NCBI RefSeq assembly: GCF_029813115.1
Contig: NZ_JAPZDS010000003.1
Location: 124,001-188,000 of the forward strand
Direction of reading: 5' to 3'
From: Aureimonas sp. SK2
Lineage (GTDB): Bacteria; Pseudomonadota; Alphaproteobacteria; Rhizobiales; Rhizobiaceae
DNA length: 64,000 nucleotides
The position numbers and the translations under genes are program-made. A model generated the notes under the pieces. That model was not told the origin of the DNA. It made no database searches and was given only the letters and a program-made list of their open reading frames with translations. The stretch's first letter is position 1. Each line of letters begins with the position of its first letter. Below, in pieces: positions 12,142 through 21,052 of this stretch.

Positions 12142-13155
12142 ATGAATCGCATCGTGAAGACGACGTGCATCGCACTCGGACTTACGTCCCTCGGCTCCGT
12201 CGCAGCCTATGCTCAGGCTCAGGGCGACTGCAGCGAAGTCACCGTCGCCGCCATGAACTGGCAGAGCGCCGAGGTCCTCGCCAGCCTCGACAAGTTCATT
12301 CTGGAGAACGGCTACGGCTGCAAGGTCTCCATCATCTCCGGCGACACCGTCCCGACATTGACCTCCATGGCCGAACGCGGCCAGCCCGATATCGCTCCCG
12401 AGGGTTGGGTTGATCTGGTGCCGGAGGTCATCAACCGCGGTCTCTCGGAGAAGACCCTCGTGGCCGTCGGTCCGGCGCTGTCGGACGGTGCTCAGCAGGG
12501 CTGGTGGATCCCGCAATACGTCGCCGACGCCCACCCTGACATCAAGACCATCGCCGACGCCCTGAAGCATCCTGAGCTGTTTCCCAACCCGGAGGACAAG
12601 AGCAAGGGCGCCGTCTTCAACGGCCCGCAGGGCTGGGGCGGCACGGTCGTGACCGCGCAGTTCTTCAAGGCCTACGACGCCGCCAGCAAGGGCTTCGACC
12701 TCGTGGACACCGGCTCCTCCGCCGGCCTCGACGGCTCCATCGCCCGCGCCTACGAGAACAAGCAGGGCTGGCTCGGCTACTACTGGGCTCCGACCGCCAT
12801 TCTCGGCCGGTATCCCATGGTGAAGCTCAACATCGACGCGCCGCACGACGCCGCCGAGTGGAAGCGCTGCAACTCCAACGCCGACTGCCCGGACCCGAAG
12901 ATCAACGACTGGGTCGCCGACAAGGTGGCGACGGTCACGACCGCCAAGTTCGCCGAGCGCGCAGGCGAGCCGGTCATGACCTATCTCGGCAAGCGGTCCT
13001 GGTCCAACGCCACCGTCAACGAGCTTCTGTCCTGGATGACCGACAACCAGGCGAATGGCGACGACGGCGCCAAGCACTTCCTCGAGACCAAGAAGGACGT
13101 CTGGGGCGCCTGGGTGACCCCGGAGGCCGCCGCCAAGATCGAAGCCGCCCTCTAA
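12142..13155 (+). CDS. proX: Glycine betaine/choline-type ABC transporter substrate-binding protein (ProX/OpuAC family)
   Basis: A 337-residue OpuAC-family binding protein. ATG 12142 is chosen because GGGAGA precedes it and a signal peptide follows (M-N-R-I-V-K, hydrophobic core, A-Y-A-Q-A near residue 24). Aromatic residues that could form the quaternary-ammonium box are visible: M-N-W near 40, G-W-W-I-P, G-W-G-G and G-Y-Y-W-A-P. It is the first gene of a three-gene importer operon. Its location between dimethylglycine dehydrogenase and GbcAB genes suggests betaine, but choline, carnitine or proline betaine are possible. Confidence 0.87.
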   Translation: MNRIVKTTCIALGLTSLGSVAAYAQAQGDCSEVTVAAMNWQSAEVLASLDKFILENGYGCKVSIISGDTVPTLTSMAERGQPDIAPEGWVDLVPEVINRGLSEKTLVAVGPALSDGAQQGWWIPQYVADAHPDIKTIADALKHPELFPNPEDKSKGAVFNGPQGWGGTVVTAQFFKAYDAASKGFDLVDTGSSAGLDGSIARAYENKQGWLGYYWAPTAILGRYPMVKLNIDAPHDAAEWKRCNSNADCPDPKINDWVADKVATVTTAKFAERAGEPVMTYLGKRSWSNATVNELLSWMTDNQANGDDGAKHFLETKKDVWGAWVTPEAAAKIEAAL

Positions 13156-13253
13156 GCGCAGTCGAAGACTTCGGTTCCCTCCTGCGCGCCCCTTCCGGGA
13201 CGGCGCGCAGGGGCGACCGAGCGCTAGCGAGCCACTCGGACAGGGGAAGCGCA

Positions 13254-14141
13254 ATGGACTGGCTGTGGACGTTTCCACACATGGACGACAACCGCCTGCG
13301 AATGCTTCGCGGGACGATCGACGACGCGTTCCGCAGCTTCACGAGAGCCTGGGGTGATCCGATCCAGGCCTTGTTCGAGCCGCTGCGGCTGCTCCTCGTT
13401 TGGGCGGAATGGGTGATGCTCAGCGCCCCCTGGCCGCTGGTCATCCTGGCGGTCGCGGCGCTCGCCTGGGTCGCCAGCCGCCGCTGGCCCATCGTGATAG
13501 GCTCGGTCGTGGTGCTCCTGCTGATCGGCTATTTCGACATGTGGGAAGACACGATGCGGACGATCTCCATGATCCTCGTCTGCACCCTGATCTCGCTGGT
13601 GGTCGGAATTCCCATCGGCATCGCGATGGCGCGCTCCAACCGCGTCCGCAACGTCATCAGCCCCATCCTCGACGTGATGCAGACGCTGCCGAGCTTCGTC
13701 TACCTCATCCCTGTGGTCATGCTCATGGGCATCGGCCGCGTGCCCGGCCTGATCGCCGTGGTGATCTACGCCATTCCGCCGATCATCCGCCTCACCGACC
13801 TCGGCATCCGCCTCGTCAACAAGGAGGTGCTCGAAGCCTCGGACGCCTTCGGCTCGTCGTCCTGGCAGAAGCTCGTCAACGTGCAGCTGCCGCTGGCCAT
13901 GCCGACCATCATGACCGGCATCAACCAGACCATCATGATGGCGCTCGCCATGGTCGTCATCGCCTCCATGATCGGCGTCCAGGGCCTCGGCCAGCCGGTT
14001 CTGCGCGCCATCAACAACCAGTACTTCACGATGGGCATCTTCAACGGCTTGGCCATCGTCGGCATCGCGATCATCTTCGACCGGATCAGCCAGGCCTTCG
14101 GCCAGCGCCTGCAACGGCACAAGGAGCACGGGCATGCTTGA
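13254..14141 (+). CDS. proW: Betaine/choline-type ABC transporter permease (ProW/OpuAB family)
   Basis: A 295-residue membrane protein. ATG 13254 has AGGGGAAG just upstream. About seven membrane segments lie between residues 45 and 280. The cytoplasmic coupling loop is visible as V-L-E-A-S-D-A-F-G-S-S-S-W-Q-K-L. G-V-Q-G-L-G-Q-P-V-L, typical of ProW, comes near the end. It follows the binding-protein gene by 98 bases and overlaps the ATPase gene by 8 bases, so translation of the pair is likely coupled. Confidence 0.88.
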   Translation: MDWLWTFPHMDDNRLRMLRGTIDDAFRSFTRAWGDPIQALFEPLRLLLVWAEWVMLSAPWPLVILAVAALAWVASRRWPIVIGSVVVLLLIGYFDMWEDTMRTISMILVCTLISLVVGIPIGIAMARSNRVRNVISPILDVMQTLPSFVYLIPVVMLMGIGRVPGLIAVVIYAIPPIIRLTDLGIRLVNKEVLEASDAFGSSSWQKLVNVQLPLAMPTIMTGINQTIMMALAMVVIASMIGVQGLGQPVLRAINNQYFTMGIFNGLAIVGIAIIFDRISQAFGQRLQRHKEHGHA

Positions 14142-15216
14142 CACCACGTCCCAGTTCCGACGCCCGGCGCCGGCCGCGAGCGCGAAGGTCGCCGAGCCCG
14201 GCATCGAGATCCGCGGCCTGTCCAAGATCTTCGGCAAGAACCCGGAAAAGATCGTCCCCCTCCTGAAGGGCGGCGTCAGCAAGAAGGAGATCATGGACGT
14301 CCACCGGCACGTCCTCGGTCTCAACGACATCAACATGTCGATGCCCGCCGGCGGCATCCAGGTCATCATGGGACTGTCCGGATCCGGCAAGTCGACGCTG
14401 ATCCGCCACATCAACCGGCTGATCGATCCGAGCATCGGCGAGGTTCTCGTCGGCGGCGTCGACGTCTGCAAGATGTCGCCGAAGGAACTGCGCGAATTCC
14501 GCCGCCACCAGACGGCGATGGTGTTCCAGCAGTTCGGCCTCCTGCCGCACCGAACCGTCCTCGACAACGCGGTCTACGGCCTGGAACTGCAGGGCGTGCC
14601 GCGCGCCAAGCAGGTCGAGGCGGCCATGCACTGGCTGGCGCGCGTCGGCCTGTCGGGCTTTGAGCAGCACTATCCGCACCAGCTCTCCGGCGGTATGCAG
14701 CAGCGCGTCGGCCTCGCCCGCGCGCTCGTCAACGACGCGCCGATCCTTCTGATGGACGAGGCCTTCTCGGCGCTCGACCCGCTGATCCGCGTCGACATGC
14801 AGTCGATCCTTCTGGACCTTCAGAAGGAGATCAAGAAGACCATCGTCTTCATCACCCACGACCTGGACGAGGCGCTGCGCCTCGGCGACCGGATCGCCAT
14901 CCTGCGGGATGGCGAGATCGTGCAGCAGGGCACCGGTCAGGAGATCGTCCTGTCGCCCGCCGACGACTACATCGTCGAGTTCGTGCGCCATGTGAACCGC
15001 GGCAAGGTGCTCCAGCTTTCCTCGGTCATGTGGCCGAGTTCTGTGGTGCCGAGCGATGCCGACGGCATCGAGCTGCCCGCCAACACGCTCCTCGAGACCG
15101 CCGTTTCCACCCTCCTCGAGTCCGGAAAGAACCTGATCGTGGTCACCGACGACCGCGGCGCGCGTCTCGGCACGCTGACCCTTGCCGAGGCCGTCGCCGC
15201 GATGGTCTCGCCCTGA
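14134..15216 (+). CDS. proV: Betaine/choline-type ABC transporter ATP-binding protein (ProV/OpuAA family)
   Basis: A 360-residue ATPase with the long N-terminus and insertion typical of ProV. Walker A is G-L-S-G-S-G-K-S-T (about residues 83-91), the signature is L-S-G-G-M-Q-Q-R-V, and Walker B is [11 protein letters not shown]. After about residue 285 there is a shortened tail in place of a full tandem CBS pair, ending in a strand [10 protein letters not shown] like half of one CBS unit. It would power the importer with the two preceding genes. A terminator follows at 15247-15285. Confidence 0.9.
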
Positions 15217-15246
15217 GGGCGCAAAGCCGACTTCTCCCCATTGTTC

Positions 15247-15285
15247 CGCCGGGCGGCACAGGGTGCGCGCCCGGCGCCTTTTTTT
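15247..15285 (+). terminator. Intrinsic terminator after the betaine importer operon
   Basis: A perfect 9-base-pair stem (CGCCGGGCG at 15247-15255 with CGCCCGGCG at 15268-15276) encloses a 12-base loop. It is followed by CC and seven T. It ends only 8 bases before the next start codon, which is unusual. Confidence 0.85.
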
Positions 15286-15293
15286 GGTGACCC

Positions 15294-15800
15294 ATGGCAG
15301 ACGCCCGCGCAGACCTCGACGCTTTGTTCGCCCGGCTCGGCATTCAGCCGTTTTCGATTGACCACCCGCCCGTGCACACCGTGGAGGAGGCCCTGCCCTT
15401 CTGGGAGAAGCTGGAGGGCGTCCACACCAAGAACCTTCTTCTGAAAGGCGCCAAGGGCGGGTTGTGGCTGGTCTGCGTTCCAACCGATCGCCGGATCGAC
15501 CTGAAGGCCCTGGCAGCCCATGTCGGCGCGAAGAAATTCTCCTTCGCCAGCGGCGAGACACTTCTGGACGCGCTCGGCGTTCAGCAGGGTTCGGTGAGCC
15601 CGCTGGCGCTGGTCGCCGACAAGGCGCAAGCCGTGCAGCTCGTCCTGGCGAAGGACATGCTGGCGCAACCGCGCATCACGGTTCATCCGCTCGTCAACAC
15701 GTCCACCCTGTCGCTGACGAGCAAGGAACTCCTGAAGGTGGTCGAGGCCACGGGCCACCGTCCCGAGATCGTGGACTTCGACGCGCTCGGGGCCGAATAG
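15294..15800 (+). CDS. YbaK/EbsC (ProXp/PrdX)-type prolyl-tRNA editing deacylase domain protein
   Basis: A 168-residue free-standing editing domain of the kind that hydrolyses mischarged Ala- or Cys-tRNA(Pro). Family features are V-H-T-V-E-E-A near residue 30, K-N-L-L-L-K around residue 48, G-S-V-S-P-L-A-L near 100, and a closing H-P-L-V-N-T-S-T-L-S. It is cytoplasmic. The start lies immediately behind the importer terminator with only a weak GGTGA ribosome site, so expression must come from read-through or a promoter inside the terminator region. It is convergent with the next regulator, with a 3-base gap. A link to betaine metabolism is not obvious. Confidence 0.85.
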   Translation: MADARADLDALFARLGIQPFSIDHPPVHTVEEALPFWEKLEGVHTKNLLLKGAKGGLWLVCVPTDRRIDLKALAAHVGAKKFSFASGETLLDALGVQQGSVSPLALVADKAQAVQLVLAKDMLAQPRITVHPLVNTSTLSLTSKELLKVVEATGHRPEIVDFDALGAE

Positions 15801-15803
15801 GCT

Positions 15804-16766
15804 TCAGGCCGCCGGTGCCTTCCGCTCGGCCCGCGGACTGTGGCCGTAGCGGTCGAGATAGCTCTGCGAGAAATAGGACGCGGAGTTGAAGCCGCTGGCC
15901 ATGGCGACGTCGAGGACCGACAGCCGCGTCTGCTTCAGGAGCTGGCGCGCGTGCTCCAGCCGAATGTTGACGTAGTGACGGCTCGGCGAAACGCCGAGAT
16001 GCTCGGTGAAGAGCCGTTCCAGTTGACGCGGCGAGAGAGCGACCGCGCGCGCGAATTCGTCGATCCCCGCCGGCCGGTCGATGGACGCCTCCATCATCTC
16101 CACGACGCGCAGAAGCTTTGGATGCGCGATTCCCGACCGCTCGCCGACATCCGGTCGCTGGCGCTCGCCCGCTTCGCGAATGCGCTGGTGGATGAGCTGT
16201 GCGGTAACGGCCCGCGAGATCGCCTCCCCGTGCTCGCGCCGGATCAGGGACAGCATCATGTCGGCCGCGGCGACGCCGCCCGCGCAGGTGAAGCGGTCGC
16301 GGTCGATCTCGAACAGGTCGTCGCCGACCTGAAGGTCGGGGAAGTCGGCGCGCAGTCCCGGCCGGTTTTCCCAGTGGATCGTGCAGCGGTAGCCGTCGAG
16401 CAGCCCGCCCTTGGCCAGCACGTAGGCGCCGGTGCAGACGGCTCCGGCCGATGCTCCGCAGGAAATCTGCCGGCGCAACACCGAGATCAGGTCGTGATGG
16501 TCGATCCGCTGCACGTCGACGCCCGCGCACACCACGACCGCATCGACGGATGCAGCGTCGCGGAAGGCGCCGTCCACCCGCACACGTACGCCGTTGGACG
16601 CCTCCGCCTCGTGGCCGCCGGACGAATACAGCCGCCAGGCATAGAGATGGCGGCCCGCCGCCCGGTTGGCAAGGCGCAGGGGCTCCAGCGCCGCCGTGAA
16701 GGCGATCATCGAGAAGTGCTCGGTGAGCAGGAAGCCGAAGACGTAGGGATCGAAGTTGCTGTGCAC
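15804..16766 (-). CDS. GlxA-family AraC-type regulator, GbdR-like, divergent from gbcA
   Basis: A 320-residue regulator read from the GTG at 16764-16766, which gives M-H-S-N-F-D-P-Y-V-F-G-F-L-L; a TTG at 16787 would add seven residues. The DJ-1-like domain has V-C-T-G-A-Y-V-L-A-K-G-G-L-L at the elbow and T-C-A-G-G-V-A-A-A-D. The AraC domain closes with A-S-G-F-N-S-A-S-Y-F-S-Q-S-Y. It is divergent from gbcA, the arrangement expected for an activator like GbdR, which responds to betaine and dimethylglycine in pseudomonads. It shares the 136-base intergenic region with the TGTCGC direct repeat. Confidence 0.87.
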   Translation of the reverse strand: MHSNFDPYVFGFLLTEHFSMIAFTAALEPLRLANRAAGRHLYAWRLYSSGGHEAEASNGVRVRVDGAFRDAASVDAVVVCAGVDVQRIDHHDLISVLRRQISCGASAGAVCTGAYVLAKGGLLDGYRCTIHWENRPGLRADFPDLQVGDDLFEIDRDRFTCAGGVAAADMMLSLIRREHGEAISRAVTAQLIHQRIREAGERQRPDVGERSGIAHPKLLRVVEMMEASIDRPAGIDEFARAVALSPRQLERLFTEHLGVSPSRHYVNIRLEHARQLLKQTRLSVLDVAMASGFNSASYFSQSYLDRYGHSPRAERKAPAA

Positions 16767-16787
16767 AGCGGCGCCTGTCCGAAACAA

Positions 16788-16824
16788 TGTCGGAAAATCT
16801 AAAATAGCTGTCGCAACGCTTCAA
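16788..16824 (+). promoter_or_regulatory. TGTCGS direct repeat (21-base spacing) upstream of gbcA
   Basis: TGTCGG starts at 16788 and TGTCGC at 16809, exactly 21 bases apart. Each is followed after eight bases by AA, the form TGTCGC-N8-AA-N5 reported for the GlxA-type ArgR of pseudomonads. A weak promoter (TTCAAG at 16820-16825, AAGAAT at 16843-16848, 17-base spacer) lies just downstream, which suits an activator. A GlxA-type regulator is encoded on the other side. Confidence 0.55.
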
Positions 16825-16902
16825 GACAGGCGATCGCTAAACAAGAATCCTTCCAGTCTACAGGGGTTCTCAAGAGCCCCGTTTGCGGAGGCGCGATCGG
16901 TC

Positions 16903-18159
16903 ATGCTGAACACGTTGAATTCGCTGGAAGCGCTGGTTCACGGACGCAAGCCCGGCCATAGCCTGGACGCGCCCTTCTACACGTCGCCGGAGATTTTCCA
17001 GGCCGACATGGAAGCCATCTTCTATCGTCACTGGATCTATGTCGGCGTCGAGCCGGACGTGCCCGAGCCCGGCGACGTGATGACCGTGGAGATCGGCAAG
17101 GCGTCGATCCTGATCATCCGCGACGACGACAACGAGGTCCGCGCCTTCTTCAACGTCTGCCGACACCGCGGCGCGCGGCTGATCGACGACGAAAAGGCCA
17201 CCGTCGGCAATCTCGTCTGCCGCTACCACTCCTGGACCTACGGCCTCGACGGGCGTCTCGTCCACGCGCCCCACATGGGCGCCGACTTCGACCCGTCCTG
17301 CAAGGGCCTGAAGCCGGTCAACCTCCGGTCGCTGGAAGGTCTGCTCTTCGTCTGCCTCGCCGACGAGCCGCCGGAAGACTTCGACCAGCTCGCCGCCCGC
17401 ATGGGTCCCTATATCGCGCCCCACAACGTTCGCGGCACCAAGATCGCCTACCAGAGCGATCTGATCGAGGCGGGCAACTGGAAGCTGACCCTGGAAAACA
17501 ACCGGGAATGCTACCACTGCGAGGCCAACCACCCCGAGCTGACGGTCCCGCTCTTCGCCTACGGCTTCGGCTTCTCGCCGGAGGAGATGGACCCGATCGA
17601 CCTCGAGAACGCAAGGCGCTACGAAGCCCTGCGCCAGAAGAGCCACGCCGAGTGGGAGGAGATGGGCCTGCCCTCGCGAGAGATCGAGGAGCTCGACACG
17701 CGCGTCAGCGGCTTCCGCACCGAGCGTCTGCCGCTGGACGGCGACGGCGAAAGCCACACGATGGACACGCGCGCCGCGTGCCGCGTTCCACTAGGCCGGA
17801 TCAGCAACGCCAAGCTCGGCGGTCTGTCCTTCTGGACGCAGCCGAACTCCTGGCACCATTTCCTTGGCGACCACATCGTCACCTTCTCGGTGTTGCCGCT
17901 GGACGAGGGTCGCACGCTGGTGCGCACCAAGTGGCTGGTCAACAAGGACGCGGTCGAGGGCGTCGACTACGAGATCGACCGACTGATCGAGGTCTGGACC
18001 GCGACCAACGCCCAGGACGCGGCGCTCGTCGAAATGTGCCAGCAGGGCGCGCTGAGCCCCGCTTACGAACCCGGCCCCTACTCGCCTAACACCGAGATGC
18101 TCGTCGAGAAGTTCATTCGCTGGTACATCGCCCGCATGTCGGACCATCTCGCCAAATGA
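16903..18159 (+). CDS. gbcA: Glycine betaine demethylase, Rieske oxygenase subunit GbcA
   Basis: A 418-residue Rieske non-heme iron oxygenase. The Rieske cluster ligands are Cys86 and His88 (C-R-H-R-G) and Cys106 and His109 (C-R-Y-H-S-W). The mononuclear iron site shows N-N-R-E-C-Y-H-C-E-A-N-H with His205 and His210. GbcA oxidises a methyl group of glycine betaine, releasing formaldehyde and dimethylglycine, with electrons from GbcB. ATG 16903 has GGAGG upstream. It overlaps gbcB by 4 bases. Stachydrine demethylases are close relatives, so the substrate rests on the surrounding betaine genes. Confidence 0.88.
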   Translation: MLNTLNSLEALVHGRKPGHSLDAPFYTSPEIFQADMEAIFYRHWIYVGVEPDVPEPGDVMTVEIGKASILIIRDDDNEVRAFFNVCRHRGARLIDDEKATVGNLVCRYHSWTYGLDGRLVHAPHMGADFDPSCKGLKPVNLRSLEGLLFVCLADEPPEDFDQLAARMGPYIAPHNVRGTKIAYQSDLIEAGNWKLTLENNRECYHCEANHPELTVPLFAYGFGFSPEEMDPIDLENARRYEALRQKSHAEWEEMGLPSREIEELDTRVSGFRTERLPLDGDGESHTMDTRAACRVPLGRISNAKLGGLSFWTQPNSWHHFLGDHIVTFSVLPLDEGRTLVRTKWLVNKDAVEGVDYEIDRLIEVWTATNAQDAALVEMCQQGALSPAYEPGPYSPNTEMLVEKFIRWYIARMSDHLAK

Positions 18160-19298
18160 GCGCTACGGCTACCGACGGGGCCGGCACGAACGGACCCCCC
18201 CCCTCCGCCTTCGAGCCGGCCGAGGCCATCTGGACCGGCGAGACGGACGACATCCTGATTTGCCAGGCGGTTCGGGACGAGACCCACGACGTGAAGACGT
18301 TCGTGCTCGCCCCCGCCGAGCCGGGCCGGTTCCGATACCAGCCGGGCCAGTTCATGACCTACGCCTTCGAGATCGGCGGCGAGACGATCTATCGCTGCTA
18401 CACGATCTCCTCGGCGCCGACGCGGCCCGACCGCATCGCGCTGACCGTCAAGCGCGTGCCGGGCGGGCCGGTCTCCAACTGGCTGCACGACAGCTTCAAG
18501 CCCGGCATGCGACTTCGCGCCGCCGGGCCGATGGGCGACTTCACCTCCAGCGCGCATCCCGCCGCCAAGTATCTGTTCCTCTCGGGCGGGAGCGGCATCA
18601 CGCCGGTCATGTCCATGGCGCGGACCTTCCACGACCTCGGCCGCGAAGAGGACGTGACCTTCATCCATTCGGCGCGCTCGCCGGCGGACATCATCTTCCG
18701 CGAGGAGCTGGAGGCCATGGCCCGGGTGAACCCGGCGTTCCGCTTCGTGCCGATCGTCCAGAACGTCGGGCCGCTCGCGCCGTCCACCGGTCTGCGCGGC
18801 TTCCTGACGCGCGAGATCCTCGATCTCGTGGCGCCGGACTTCCGGGAGCGGGAGGTCTTCGTCTGCGGTCCCACCCCCTACATGGCGGCGGTGCGCGAGA
18901 TGCTGGCCGCGGCGGGCTACGACATGGCCCGCTACCACGACGAGAGCTTCAACTTCGAGACCCTGTCCGCAAGCGAACAGAGCGAGGCGGTCGAGGCGGA
19001 GGAACAGCTCGAGTCCGAGGCCGAGGCGCCGGTCAAGACCTACAAGGTGGAGTTCTCGAAGACCCGCCGGACCATCGACGTGCCCGCCGACATGACCGTC
19101 CTCGAAGCGGCCAAGCGGGCGGGCATGCGGCTGCCCTCCTCCTGCTCGCAGGGCCTGTGCGGCACCTGCAAATCTAAGAAGGTTTCCGGCACGGTGGAGA
19201 TGGACCACAAGGGCGGCATCCGCCAGCGCGAGATCGACGCCGGCATGGTGCTCCTTTGTTGCTCCAAGCCGACCAGCGACCTCGTCGTGGAGCGCTGA
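18156..19298 (+). CDS. gbcB: Glycine betaine demethylase, flavin/[2Fe-2S] reductase subunit GbcB
   Basis: A 380-residue NAD(P)H reductase in the order FAD domain, NAD domain, plant-type ferredoxin. R-C-Y-T-I-S-S (80-86) binds the flavin, G-S-G-I-T-P (145-150) and C-G-P (237-239) belong to the nucleotide domain, and Cys330, Cys335, Cys338 and Cys368 or Cys369 hold the [2Fe-2S] cluster. An acidic linker of about 25 residues precedes the ferredoxin. It delivers electrons to GbcA. A run of nine C (18195-18203) near codon 14 is a potential slippage site. Confidence 0.9.
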   Translation: MSATATDGAGTNGPPPSAFEPAEAIWTGETDDILICQAVRDETHDVKTFVLAPAEPGRFRYQPGQFMTYAFEIGGETIYRCYTISSAPTRPDRIALTVKRVPGGPVSNWLHDSFKPGMRLRAAGPMGDFTSSAHPAAKYLFLSGGSGITPVMSMARTFHDLGREEDVTFIHSARSPADIIFREELEAMARVNPAFRFVPIVQNVGPLAPSTGLRGFLTREILDLVAPDFREREVFVCGPTPYMAAVREMLAAAGYDMARYHDESFNFETLSASEQSEAVEAEEQLESEAEAPVKTYKVEFSKTRRTIDVPADMTVLEAAKRAGMRLPSSCSQGLCGTCKSKKVSGTVEMDHKGGIRQREIDAGMVLLCCSKPTSDLVVER

Positions 19299-19331: not shown

Positions 19332-20429
19332 TCAAGCGTCTGCCACGCCGGACTTGAGGTCGCCCGGGACGTTGCGGAAGCTGCAGTTCCCGAGACCCGT
19401 GCCGAGCGTCACGGCGGCCCAGCGTTCGACGTCCCGCATCCGCGGAACGTCGCTGAGCGCCTGGATCACCGCGTCGTTGTGCAGCATCACCAGTGGCTCG
19501 CGCGCCTCAATCGGTTCCAGTCGCGCGGCAACCTCGTGGGGCAGGTCGAACCCGCTCTCGCTCCAGTCGCCCGGCAGATTCTGGCCTCCGCTCTCCAGCC
19601 GACCCTCGGGCCGGATGACGCCCGGACAGGACAGGCCGACGAAGGGCGCCAGCCGGATGCCGTCCGCCGCGGCCAGGGCGCGCATCGATCCGACACCGTC
19701 CGCGATCCGCCCCACCATGTGCTCGCGATCGACATCCTCGTCGGCGTGGCACCACTTCTCGTGATGCGCGACGGTCAGCCTGTCGCGCTCCGCCGGTGTG
19801 CGATCGATCCGGACGATGCCCCAGCGCACGTTGGTCCCGCCGATATCGACAGCCACGAACCCGTCGCCCTGTGCCAGGGCGTCGCGCGGTGCGGCATAGG
19901 CCCACCCGACCATCCCGGCGACATCGGGCGGATGGTGAAGCCTTCGCATCTCAAGGTCGGGATGGTGTCGACGCATACGCTCGTCCGCCCGCCGCAGCAG
20001 TTCGGCGCCGAGTTCGCCCTCCATCAAGCCCCCGCCGCAGACGATCCGGCGCGTGCCCTTCCAGGAATCCGTCACCAAGAAACGCAGGAGCACCGAGGCG
20101 AAATGGTCGGTGAAGGCGTCCAGCGCACGCTCGATCACGACCGCCTCGGCCTCGCCGTCTCGGGCCGTCAGCGCAGCCTCGAGATCGTTTCCGTCGATGT
20201 CCTTGGTGCGCTGCCAGCCGAAGGGCGGCTCGTCCTCCGCCGGGACCTTCTTGCGTTCGCGGCTGAGGATCCGCCGGAACTCCGATCCACTGGCAAGATC
20301 GCCGATAAAGGCTTCGCCTTGGCGCAATGGCAGGCTGTAGCTCCGGACCTCGACCAGCGGCAGCCGACATCGGCCGTGCTCGACCCGACCATGCGCCGAC
20401 TTCCGCGAAAAATCGATTTTCCCGTGCAT
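19332..20429 (-). CDS. ROK-like sugar kinase-fold protein with circularly permuted domain order
   Basis: A 365-residue protein with ROK/hexokinase-fold motifs in the wrong order. The ROK C-terminal half comes first: an A-S-G helix (residues 46-48), then R-R-I-V-C-G-G-G-L (127-135, adenosine motif) and A-G-M-V-G-W-A (171-177). The N-terminal half follows: V-D-I-G-G-T-N (194-200, phosphate 1), C-P-G, the catalytic N-D pair (318-319) and T-L-G-T-G-L-G-N (341-348, phosphate 2), and the protein ends 17 residues later. The usual ROK zinc cysteines are absent. All ATP-site motifs are present, so it could be active; the substrate is unknown. The start is uncertain (GTG at 20471 possible). Confidence 0.75.
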   Translation of the reverse strand: MHGKIDFSRKSAHGRVEHGRCRLPLVEVRSYSLPLRQGEAFIGDLASGSEFRRILSRERKKVPAEDEPPFGWQRTKDIDGNDLEAALTARDGEAEAVVIERALDAFTDHFASVLLRFLVTDSWKGTRRIVCGGGLMEGELGAELLRRADERMRRHHPDLEMRRLHHPPDVAGMVGWAYAAPRDALAQGDGFVAVDIGGTNVRWGIVRIDRTPAERDRLTVAHHEKWCHADEDVDREHMVGRIADGVGSMRALAAADGIRLAPFVGLSCPGVIRPEGRLESGGQNLPGDWSESGFDLPHEVAARLEPIEAREPLVMLHNDAVIQALSDVPRMRDVERWAAVTLGTGLGNCSFRNVPGDLKSGVADA

Positions 20430-20531
20430 GGAGGGAGAATCAAGGCGGCTACGCGCCGGTTCCCCTTGCACCGGTCACAGCCGCGTGTAGTGCGGCTCTC
20501 ATCGCGCGCTGCGCTCGGTGAGGAGGCGGAA

Positions 20532-20607
20532 TGGCGACCCCGGCAGGATTCGAACCTGCGACCATCGGCTTAGAAGGCCGGTGCTCTATCCACTGAGCTA
20601 CGGGGCC
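20532..20607 (-). tRNA. tRNA-Arg (anticodon UCU)
   Basis: A 76-base cloverleaf including an encoded CCA. The acceptor stem is GGCCCCG with CGGGGTC (one G-U), the anticodon loop is CTTCTAA with TCT as anticodon, and the T arm is GCAGG-TTCGAAT-CCTGC. The anticodon stem has one C-A mismatch at its outer pair. It reads AGA codons and lies 18 bases after the NDUFS4-type gene. Confidence 0.95.

Positions 20608-20975: not shown

Positions 20976-21052
<77 letters not shown>

Follow-up and report, generated by a model that had tools for sequence, protein, structure and literature searches.

Evidence for a circularly permuted family of ROK-type sugar kinases in Alphaproteobacteria

A gene in the window (the whole 64,000-nucleotide stretch of Aureimonas sp. 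SK2 DNA analysed here) encodes a protein in which the two halves of a ROK-type sugar kinase appear in exchanged order. Profile comparisons make it nearly certain that the ROK/hexokinase-type sugar-kinase fold has truly been circularly permuted here. The permuted form recurs as a stable family across many genome and plasmid records, including those of nitrogen-fixing symbionts, and the family probably goes back to a ROK gene that was duplicated in tandem, fused, and trimmed at either end. As the best overall explanation of its function, we favour a permuted, stress-linked glucokinase-like enzyme that would act in trehalose turnover.

The permuted gene and its homology to canonical ROK kinases

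The coding sequence (19332–20429, minus strand) runs from an ATG to a stop codon and translates into 365 amino acids; a GTG 14 codons upstream is a possible alternative start, and no clear ribosome-binding site was seen by eye. Re-translation reproduced the frame, coordinates, and motif residue numbers of a first-pass annotation made from the sequence alone. A plus-strand open reading frame (19479–20573) overlaps the gene, and conservation tracks the minus-strand frame.

The segment that forms the C-terminal part of canonical ROK kinases, from the ASG helix to the C-terminal helix, now stands at the N terminus (residues 18–187 by profile homology, 19869–20378, minus strand like all features that follow); its first ~60 residues match canonical ROK weakly. 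Within it lie the ASG motif A46-S47-G48 (20286–20294; GDxAS in most relatives), the GGG adenosine motif (residues 132–134, 20028–20036), and AGMVGWA (residues 171–177, 19899–19919), the old C-terminal strand/helix, whose counterpart in E. coli NanK is AGLLGAA. A short join (residues 178–190, 19860–19898) connects the old C terminus to the old N terminus, which bears out the earlier proposal that AGMVGWA runs almost directly into the old N-terminal strand. Beyond the join come the DIGGTN phosphate-1 motif that marks the canonical N terminus (residues 195–200, with D195; 19830–19847), QNLPGDW (residues 283–289, 19563–19583), which corresponds to PNLP in canonical relatives, HND with the presumed catalytic aspartate (H317-N318-D319, 19473–19481), and, near the end of the chain, the GTGLGN phosphate-2 motif (residues 343–348, 19386–19403). 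The ATP and catalytic motifs DxGGT, ND, and GTGxG are thus all present. Across 128 pattern-fitting loci, 6–45 residues (median 14) follow GTGLGN.

We compared an alignment of 68 family proteins with one of 31 canonical ROK proteins using hhalign (27 of the 30 fetched genome loci, without L126, L132, and L134, plus four E. coli K-12 proteins; 315 profile positions). In native order, the family aligned through its C-terminal half only (score 72.7, 136 columns, canonical positions 3–142). A rotation scan peaked at columns 165–173, where the old termini meet: the peak cuts scored 112.7 and 110.1 over 284 and 282 columns (positions 3–302 and 8–305), and a cut at column 167 scored 113.8 over 285 columns. 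Cut points away from the peak gave 58.8–102.1, and a reversed profile 16.6. A doubled family alignment found the rotated path unaided (score 112.9, columns 171–509 to positions 3–306). Taken alone, the N-terminal half matched canonical positions 206–302 (score 57.2, with 30 column shuffles at or below 23.8) and the C-terminal half positions 3–142 (score 72.6). Both halves together cover positions 3–306 of 315 once each, in rotated order and without repeat. Circular permutation is the reading we draw because the rotated score peaks at the join of the old termini and the reversed profile reaches only 16.6. The first-pass annotation had proposed this motif order and suggested a permutation-aware alignment; the scan supports the order (110–114 rotated vs. 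72.7 native and 16.6 reversed), and rotation at the join recovers 282–285 columns of canonical ROK. The canonical linear motif order is absent from the family, and full-length ROK homology emerges after rotation alone.

Library models locate the halves in the same way. In the Bradyrhizobium BTAi1 homologue (L085), positions 206–286 of the NanK model (PRK05082) match residues 78–167, and positions 2–148 of the ROK model (PF00480) match residues 179–348. Once L085 is rotated, the BglK model spans 3–282 of its 291 positions in one stretch at a nearly unchanged score (24.2 to 24.7 bits); for one protein compared both ways, NCBIfam scores stayed about the same and only the BglK span grew. PF00480 detects L085 above its cut-off (30.9 bits) through the C-terminal half only, and scores the window protein at 12.9 bits, below the gathering cut-off of 22.9 (residues 192–348 to model positions 2–136). 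Rotation changed the PF00480 scores from 12.9 to 17.0 for the window protein, from 30.9 to 33.2 for L085, from 27.9 to 30.1 for L036, and from 30.5 to 30.3 for L033, with no extension of the alignment into the second half in the rotated proteins.

Other comparisons were less sensitive to order. HMMER models of the native and rotated family performed alike (the rotated one scored higher in 40 of 66, with a median difference of 0.1). Against a nearer canonical set (10 of 12 fetched loci), rotation lengthened the alignment from 140 to 289 columns but brought a small gain in score (120.6 to 125.7), and the N-terminal half by itself fell short of significance (22.5). Searched against PDB sequences, the rotated profile gave three short collinear stretches in 5nck and no long single alignment to it. 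The pattern for the usual motif order is a strict one: it recognises 35 of 49 canonical ROK loci and passes over E. coli NanK and AlsK.

Conservation and distribution

By an ordered-motif pattern, the rotated order is found in one frame in 128 of 132 fetched loci, a set that includes repeat fetches of single genes, so the orthologues with shared order that the annotation had recommended looking for exist in many relatives. Two of the loci missed, L054 (GGTS for GGTN) and L160 (ASG serine absent), depart by one motif letter each, and L024 is a 93-residue fragment. In L022 (genome G182), an in-frame TAG stands shortly before GTGLGN, possibly the sign of a broken gene or of misassembly.

In 46 homologues inspected, no stop interrupts the matched region and the frame ends 0–39 residues beyond it; dN/dS was 0.07–0.19 in six of eight homologue pairs, the other two being out of register and dropped. 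Given the conserved order, the open frames, and these dN/dS values, the permuted kinase gene is functional and under purifying selection and is not a joined fragment. Over 47 aligned proteins, 54 columns are invariant, including DIGG, HND, GTGLGN, GGG, and QNLPG-W. Alignment A1 left out L022 and L024, and alignments A2 and A3 took in 46 and 37 of the best 80 GTDB loci, with mainly Bradyrhizobium thinned.

Same-order homologues occur in 12 of 61 related genomes (those outside the own genome 35–61% identical) and in 12 of 289 genomes sampled class-wide, the own genome counted in each; the class-wide search scored at most six candidates per genome and may have missed some. Among 398 genomes sampled phylum-wide, 61 gave a match, which was full length in 22 (E below 1e-100). 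The remaining 39 matches are weak and partial (E 3e-7 or worse), and all seven that were aligned proved to be ordinary ROK proteins with canonical motif order. Scanning GTDB r220 contigs with a profile yielded at least 593 pattern stretches, of which at least 523 encode a relative. The best 80 of these relatives are largely from Bradyrhizobium and also from Rhodoplanes, Roseomonas, Hyphomicrobium, Reyranella, the gammaproteobacterium Peristeroidobacter, and some metagenome bins that carry other labels. Plasmid records contributed 207 matches, 204 of them across at least 80% of the query, chiefly from Rhizobium (111) and Sinorhizobium (79). The statement in the first-pass annotation that similar sequences are annotated simply as ROK holds for 36 of the 40 plasmid records among the matches listed, which are labelled ‘ROK family protein’; one record, in a listing spread over the matches, is labelled ‘hypothetical protein’. 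A phage origin was rejected: no match was found in phages, and the single PHROGs match (E 0.014) was taken as chance.

Sugar site, trehalose genes, and proposed role

ATP binding and base catalysis look intact, because DIGG, HND, GTGLGN, and GGG are invariant in the 47 aligned proteins, in agreement with the earlier view that no ATP-site motif is lost. The annotation also placed the ASG helix at the front of the protein. The helix is indeed there; the zinc motif CxCGxxGC, which stands before it in ROK proteins, has not moved along with it and is missing (0 of 128 loci), as it is from some ROK subgroups. The chain breaks between the phosphate-2 hairpin (GTGLGN..F.NR) and the ROK region bearing ExGH and the zinc motif. 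Because GFIGDRAS aligns with canonical GCxExxAS, the canonical GCxE glutamate is replaced by glycine, with an invariant aspartate adjoining. The ExGH glutamate of canonical ROK was not found in the family alignments, and the ExGH histidine may have its replacement in an invariant one near the new N terminus. The zinc/sugar-site region appears remodelled and the sugar pocket partly rebuilt.

No conserved operon was found, and no neighbour is common to most of the 43 lineages (the neighbourhood set has 126 loci; in 10 the main gene was not picked, so the lineages come from 116). The widest neighbour clusters, with families assigned by eye, are short-chain dehydrogenases (11 lineages) and ABC ATPases (10), and no other exceeds 7 of 43. 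The trehalose gene otsB lies near the permuted kinase gene (~1–6 kb between midpoints) in 10 of 126 loci and 5 of 43 lineages, and in none of 40 control windows taken around genes for ordinary Glk and ROK proteins (Fisher p=0.058 by locus and 0.033 by lineage); chance at one copy per genome would give about 0.10–0.16 lineages. Three loci (L203, L204, and L206) were added once L200 had shown otsB next to the kinase gene. Of these, L204 and L206 belong to the same lineage as L200 and the genome-search locus L221, and without the plasmid picks the otsB lineages number four, not five. In L086, the kinase, a GH15 protein with a trehalase-like N domain, OtsA, and OtsB are encoded on a single strand, while otsB, GH15, and otsA are divergent from the kinase in L207 and L066, otsB is divergent from it on Rhizobium and Shinella plasmids, and otsB lies ~4 kb upstream in Hyphomicrobium. 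The Hyphomicrobium trehalose cluster also holds a PfkB-family kinase gene between OtsA and OtsB (L058:2260–3351). No otsB neighbour lies within 7 kb of the permuted kinase on Sinorhizobium meliloti pSymB, and none is near the window’s own locus.

Upstream of the window gene, on the same strand, are tRNA-Arg(tct) and tRNA-Pro(tgg) (20532–20607 and 20976–21052, minus strand), an arrangement retained in four of seven same-genus loci (L002–L005; not L007–L009). The neighbours at 12858–19298 are, as judged by eye, presumably a choline/betaine ABC transporter, a GlxA-type regulator, and a Rieske/ferredoxin-reductase pair for glycine-betaine demethylation; they are common to the same-genus loci L230–L233 and are not listed for L234–L236.

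At the genome level, one OtsB match each was found in 40 of 42 known carriers and likewise in the other two (G018 and G019). In the class sample of 289, OtsB (PF02358; 67 of 69 matches above cut-off) is present in 12 of 12 carriers vs. 57 of 277 others (p 1.6e-8 by genome and 2.3e-6 by genus, uncorrected for genome size and ancestry). In the relatives sample outside the own genus, it is present in 3 of 3 carriers vs. 12 of 37 (p 0.046); the own genus is uninformative here because OtsB is universal there in the sample.

The sigma-EcfG general stress promoter is printed as GGAAC-N16-CGTT for Rhizobium etli in the part of PMC3892343 available to us, and we searched with a looser pattern (spacers 15–18, C or T before GTT). 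EcfG-like sites stand upstream of the permuted kinase in 17 of 115 loci (10 of 42 lineages) and upstream of 25 of 1450 other genes in the same loci (1.7%). Two wrong spacings and a reversed motif gave 0 lineages, and two scrambled motifs 2 each. In the loci printed, the sites fall 95–131 bases before the end of the scanned stretch, with a second match in L220. Bradyrhizobium has such a site in only 2 of 50 loci, and none was found at the window’s own gene. Several of the sites of other genes precede ferritin-like stress genes, by eye. In three lineages, the permuted kinase gene has beside it a gene for a ferritin-like stress protein that carries its own EcfG-like site (L058:9111–9653, L201:4174–4689, and L224:11259–11771; annotated in L201, by eye in the others). 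Trehalose and ROK go unmentioned in the available main text of PMC3892343, no open-access paper linking ROK with otsB was found, and the literature on ROK and EcfG led to PMC11387232, whose accessible portion names the ROK regulator SMa2004.

The chain ends just past the canonical phosphate-2 hairpin and starts with what canonically comes next, and the canonical C-terminal helix continues through a ~10-residue join into the canonical N-terminal strand. The old termini are close together in ROK-type folds, and in the mechanism we propose the halves would fold together as in other ROK kinases. ATP would be bound between DIGGTN, GTGLGN, and GGG, and the HND aspartate would activate a sugar hydroxyl. 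Glucose, released for example from trehalose by a GH15-type trehalase, would be converted to glucose-6-phosphate, the OtsA substrate, and the trehalose cycle would so be closed; this reaction fits because GH15, OtsA, and OtsB surround the kinase in some lineages. The permuted protein is likely an active sugar kinase. A role in stress or trehalose metabolism is probable, and glucose as the main substrate is a tentative assignment.

Ordinary Glk (PF02685) is also present in 21 of 30 carriers and in 11 of 12 in the relatives sample, own genome included, so the permuted enzyme is generally not the only glucokinase, and the need for a second one is not obvious. Replacement of an absent glucokinase was rejected as a rule, PF02685 being missing in just 9 of the 30. 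Two single-contig genomes, G543 (with two permuted copies) and G610, match neither PF02685 nor canonical ROK. The polyphosphate glucokinase model gives 110.6 and 104.5 bits to the canonical ROK genes L180 (G126) and L181 (G425), well over the next in the sample (71.2) and under the model cut-off of 250.

The main rival reading is a disaccharide substrate. A permuted kinase whose zinc-free pocket phosphorylates a disaccharide or other stress sugar and not glucose, for example trehalose to trehalose-6-phosphate (the OtsB substrate), would suit the loss of the zinc motif and of recognisable ExGH/GCxE residues, the presence of OtsB in every carrier examined, and the fact that BglK, the model for ROK beta-glucoside kinases, ranks with the top library matches in 34 of 38 members. 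However, the QNLP sugar loop and HND are ordinary, the BglK matches fall far under the model cut-off, and we know of no trehalose kinase of such kind; we consider this reading improbable. A separate family with a rebuilt zinc-free pocket and a non-glucose substrate (possibly trehalose), serving the general stress response of Alphaproteobacteria, is conceivable but doubtful.

Many ROK proteins are repressors, and a non-catalytic sensor or regulator that retains the nucleotide-binding ROK fold would accord with the altered sugar-site residues and with the lack of a neighbour common to most lineages. The invariance of DIGG, HND, and GTGLGN and the absence of a DNA-binding domain from the Pfam matches speak against such a protein, which we would not expect to find. 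Domain shuffling, in which an independent ROK-like C-terminal part was fused before the N-terminal part, might explain the weak match of the first ~60 residues, but it is very unlikely given that the halves tile the canonical profile once each in rotated order, and in outcome it equals permutation. An assembly or annotation artefact, including the rearrangement of two fragments that the first-pass annotation had allowed for, is refuted by full-length open frames in many independent genomes, single-contig ones among them, and in plasmid records.

The permuted, stress-linked glucokinase-like enzyme would point to a kinase step in trehalose metabolism or the general stress response of Alphaproteobacteria. 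To our knowledge, natural circular permutations are uncommon, and this family offers a natural experiment on the tolerance of a two-domain, hinge-closing kinase for new termini.

Comparison with known kinases

No circular permutation in the ROK/hexokinase (ASKHA, glucokinase, sugar kinase) group was found described in the open-access literature, consistent with the annotation’s statement that none was known; since only open-access papers were covered, this is not proof of absence. The accessible parts of PMC1079889 and PMC2876114 treat permutation within kinase fold groups in general, and glutathione synthetase.

Group A Glk (PF02685) is in the same superfamily as the ROK kinases, and E. coli Glk has a C-terminal PGLLG motif. 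Its profile matches the permuted family weakly (hhalign 32.9 native and 34.1 rotated), PF02685 matches 11 of 38 members at E up to 0.1 (best E 0.0091), rotated L036 scores 13.3 bits, under the cut-off of 22.1, and the own genome carries a separate Glk gene. Polyphosphate/ATP glucokinases (NF045942; 1woq) are also ROK-type and zinc-free, and their model matches 30 of 38 members at E up to 0.1, but they have the canonical order, and L085 reaches 24.7 bits, far under the 250-bit cut-off.

With the ROK kinases proper (PF00480; NanK, BglK, and ROK glucokinases), the permuted family shares the phosphate-1, HND, and phosphate-2 motifs, an ASG-like helix, GGG, a C-terminal AGLIGA motif, and near full-length profile homology once rotated. 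Unlike them, it has a rotated motif order, no zinc motif, and an unrecognisable ExGH/GCxE region, and it is ~40–60 residues longer than E. coli NanK, Mak, and AlsK (291–309 aa). The family has stayed hidden under the ‘ROK family protein’ label, with Pfam detecting one half, and no mention of permutation occurs in the plasmid annotations examined. The Rhizobium and Sinorhizobium plasmid entries of that name are the same permuted family and differ in label alone.
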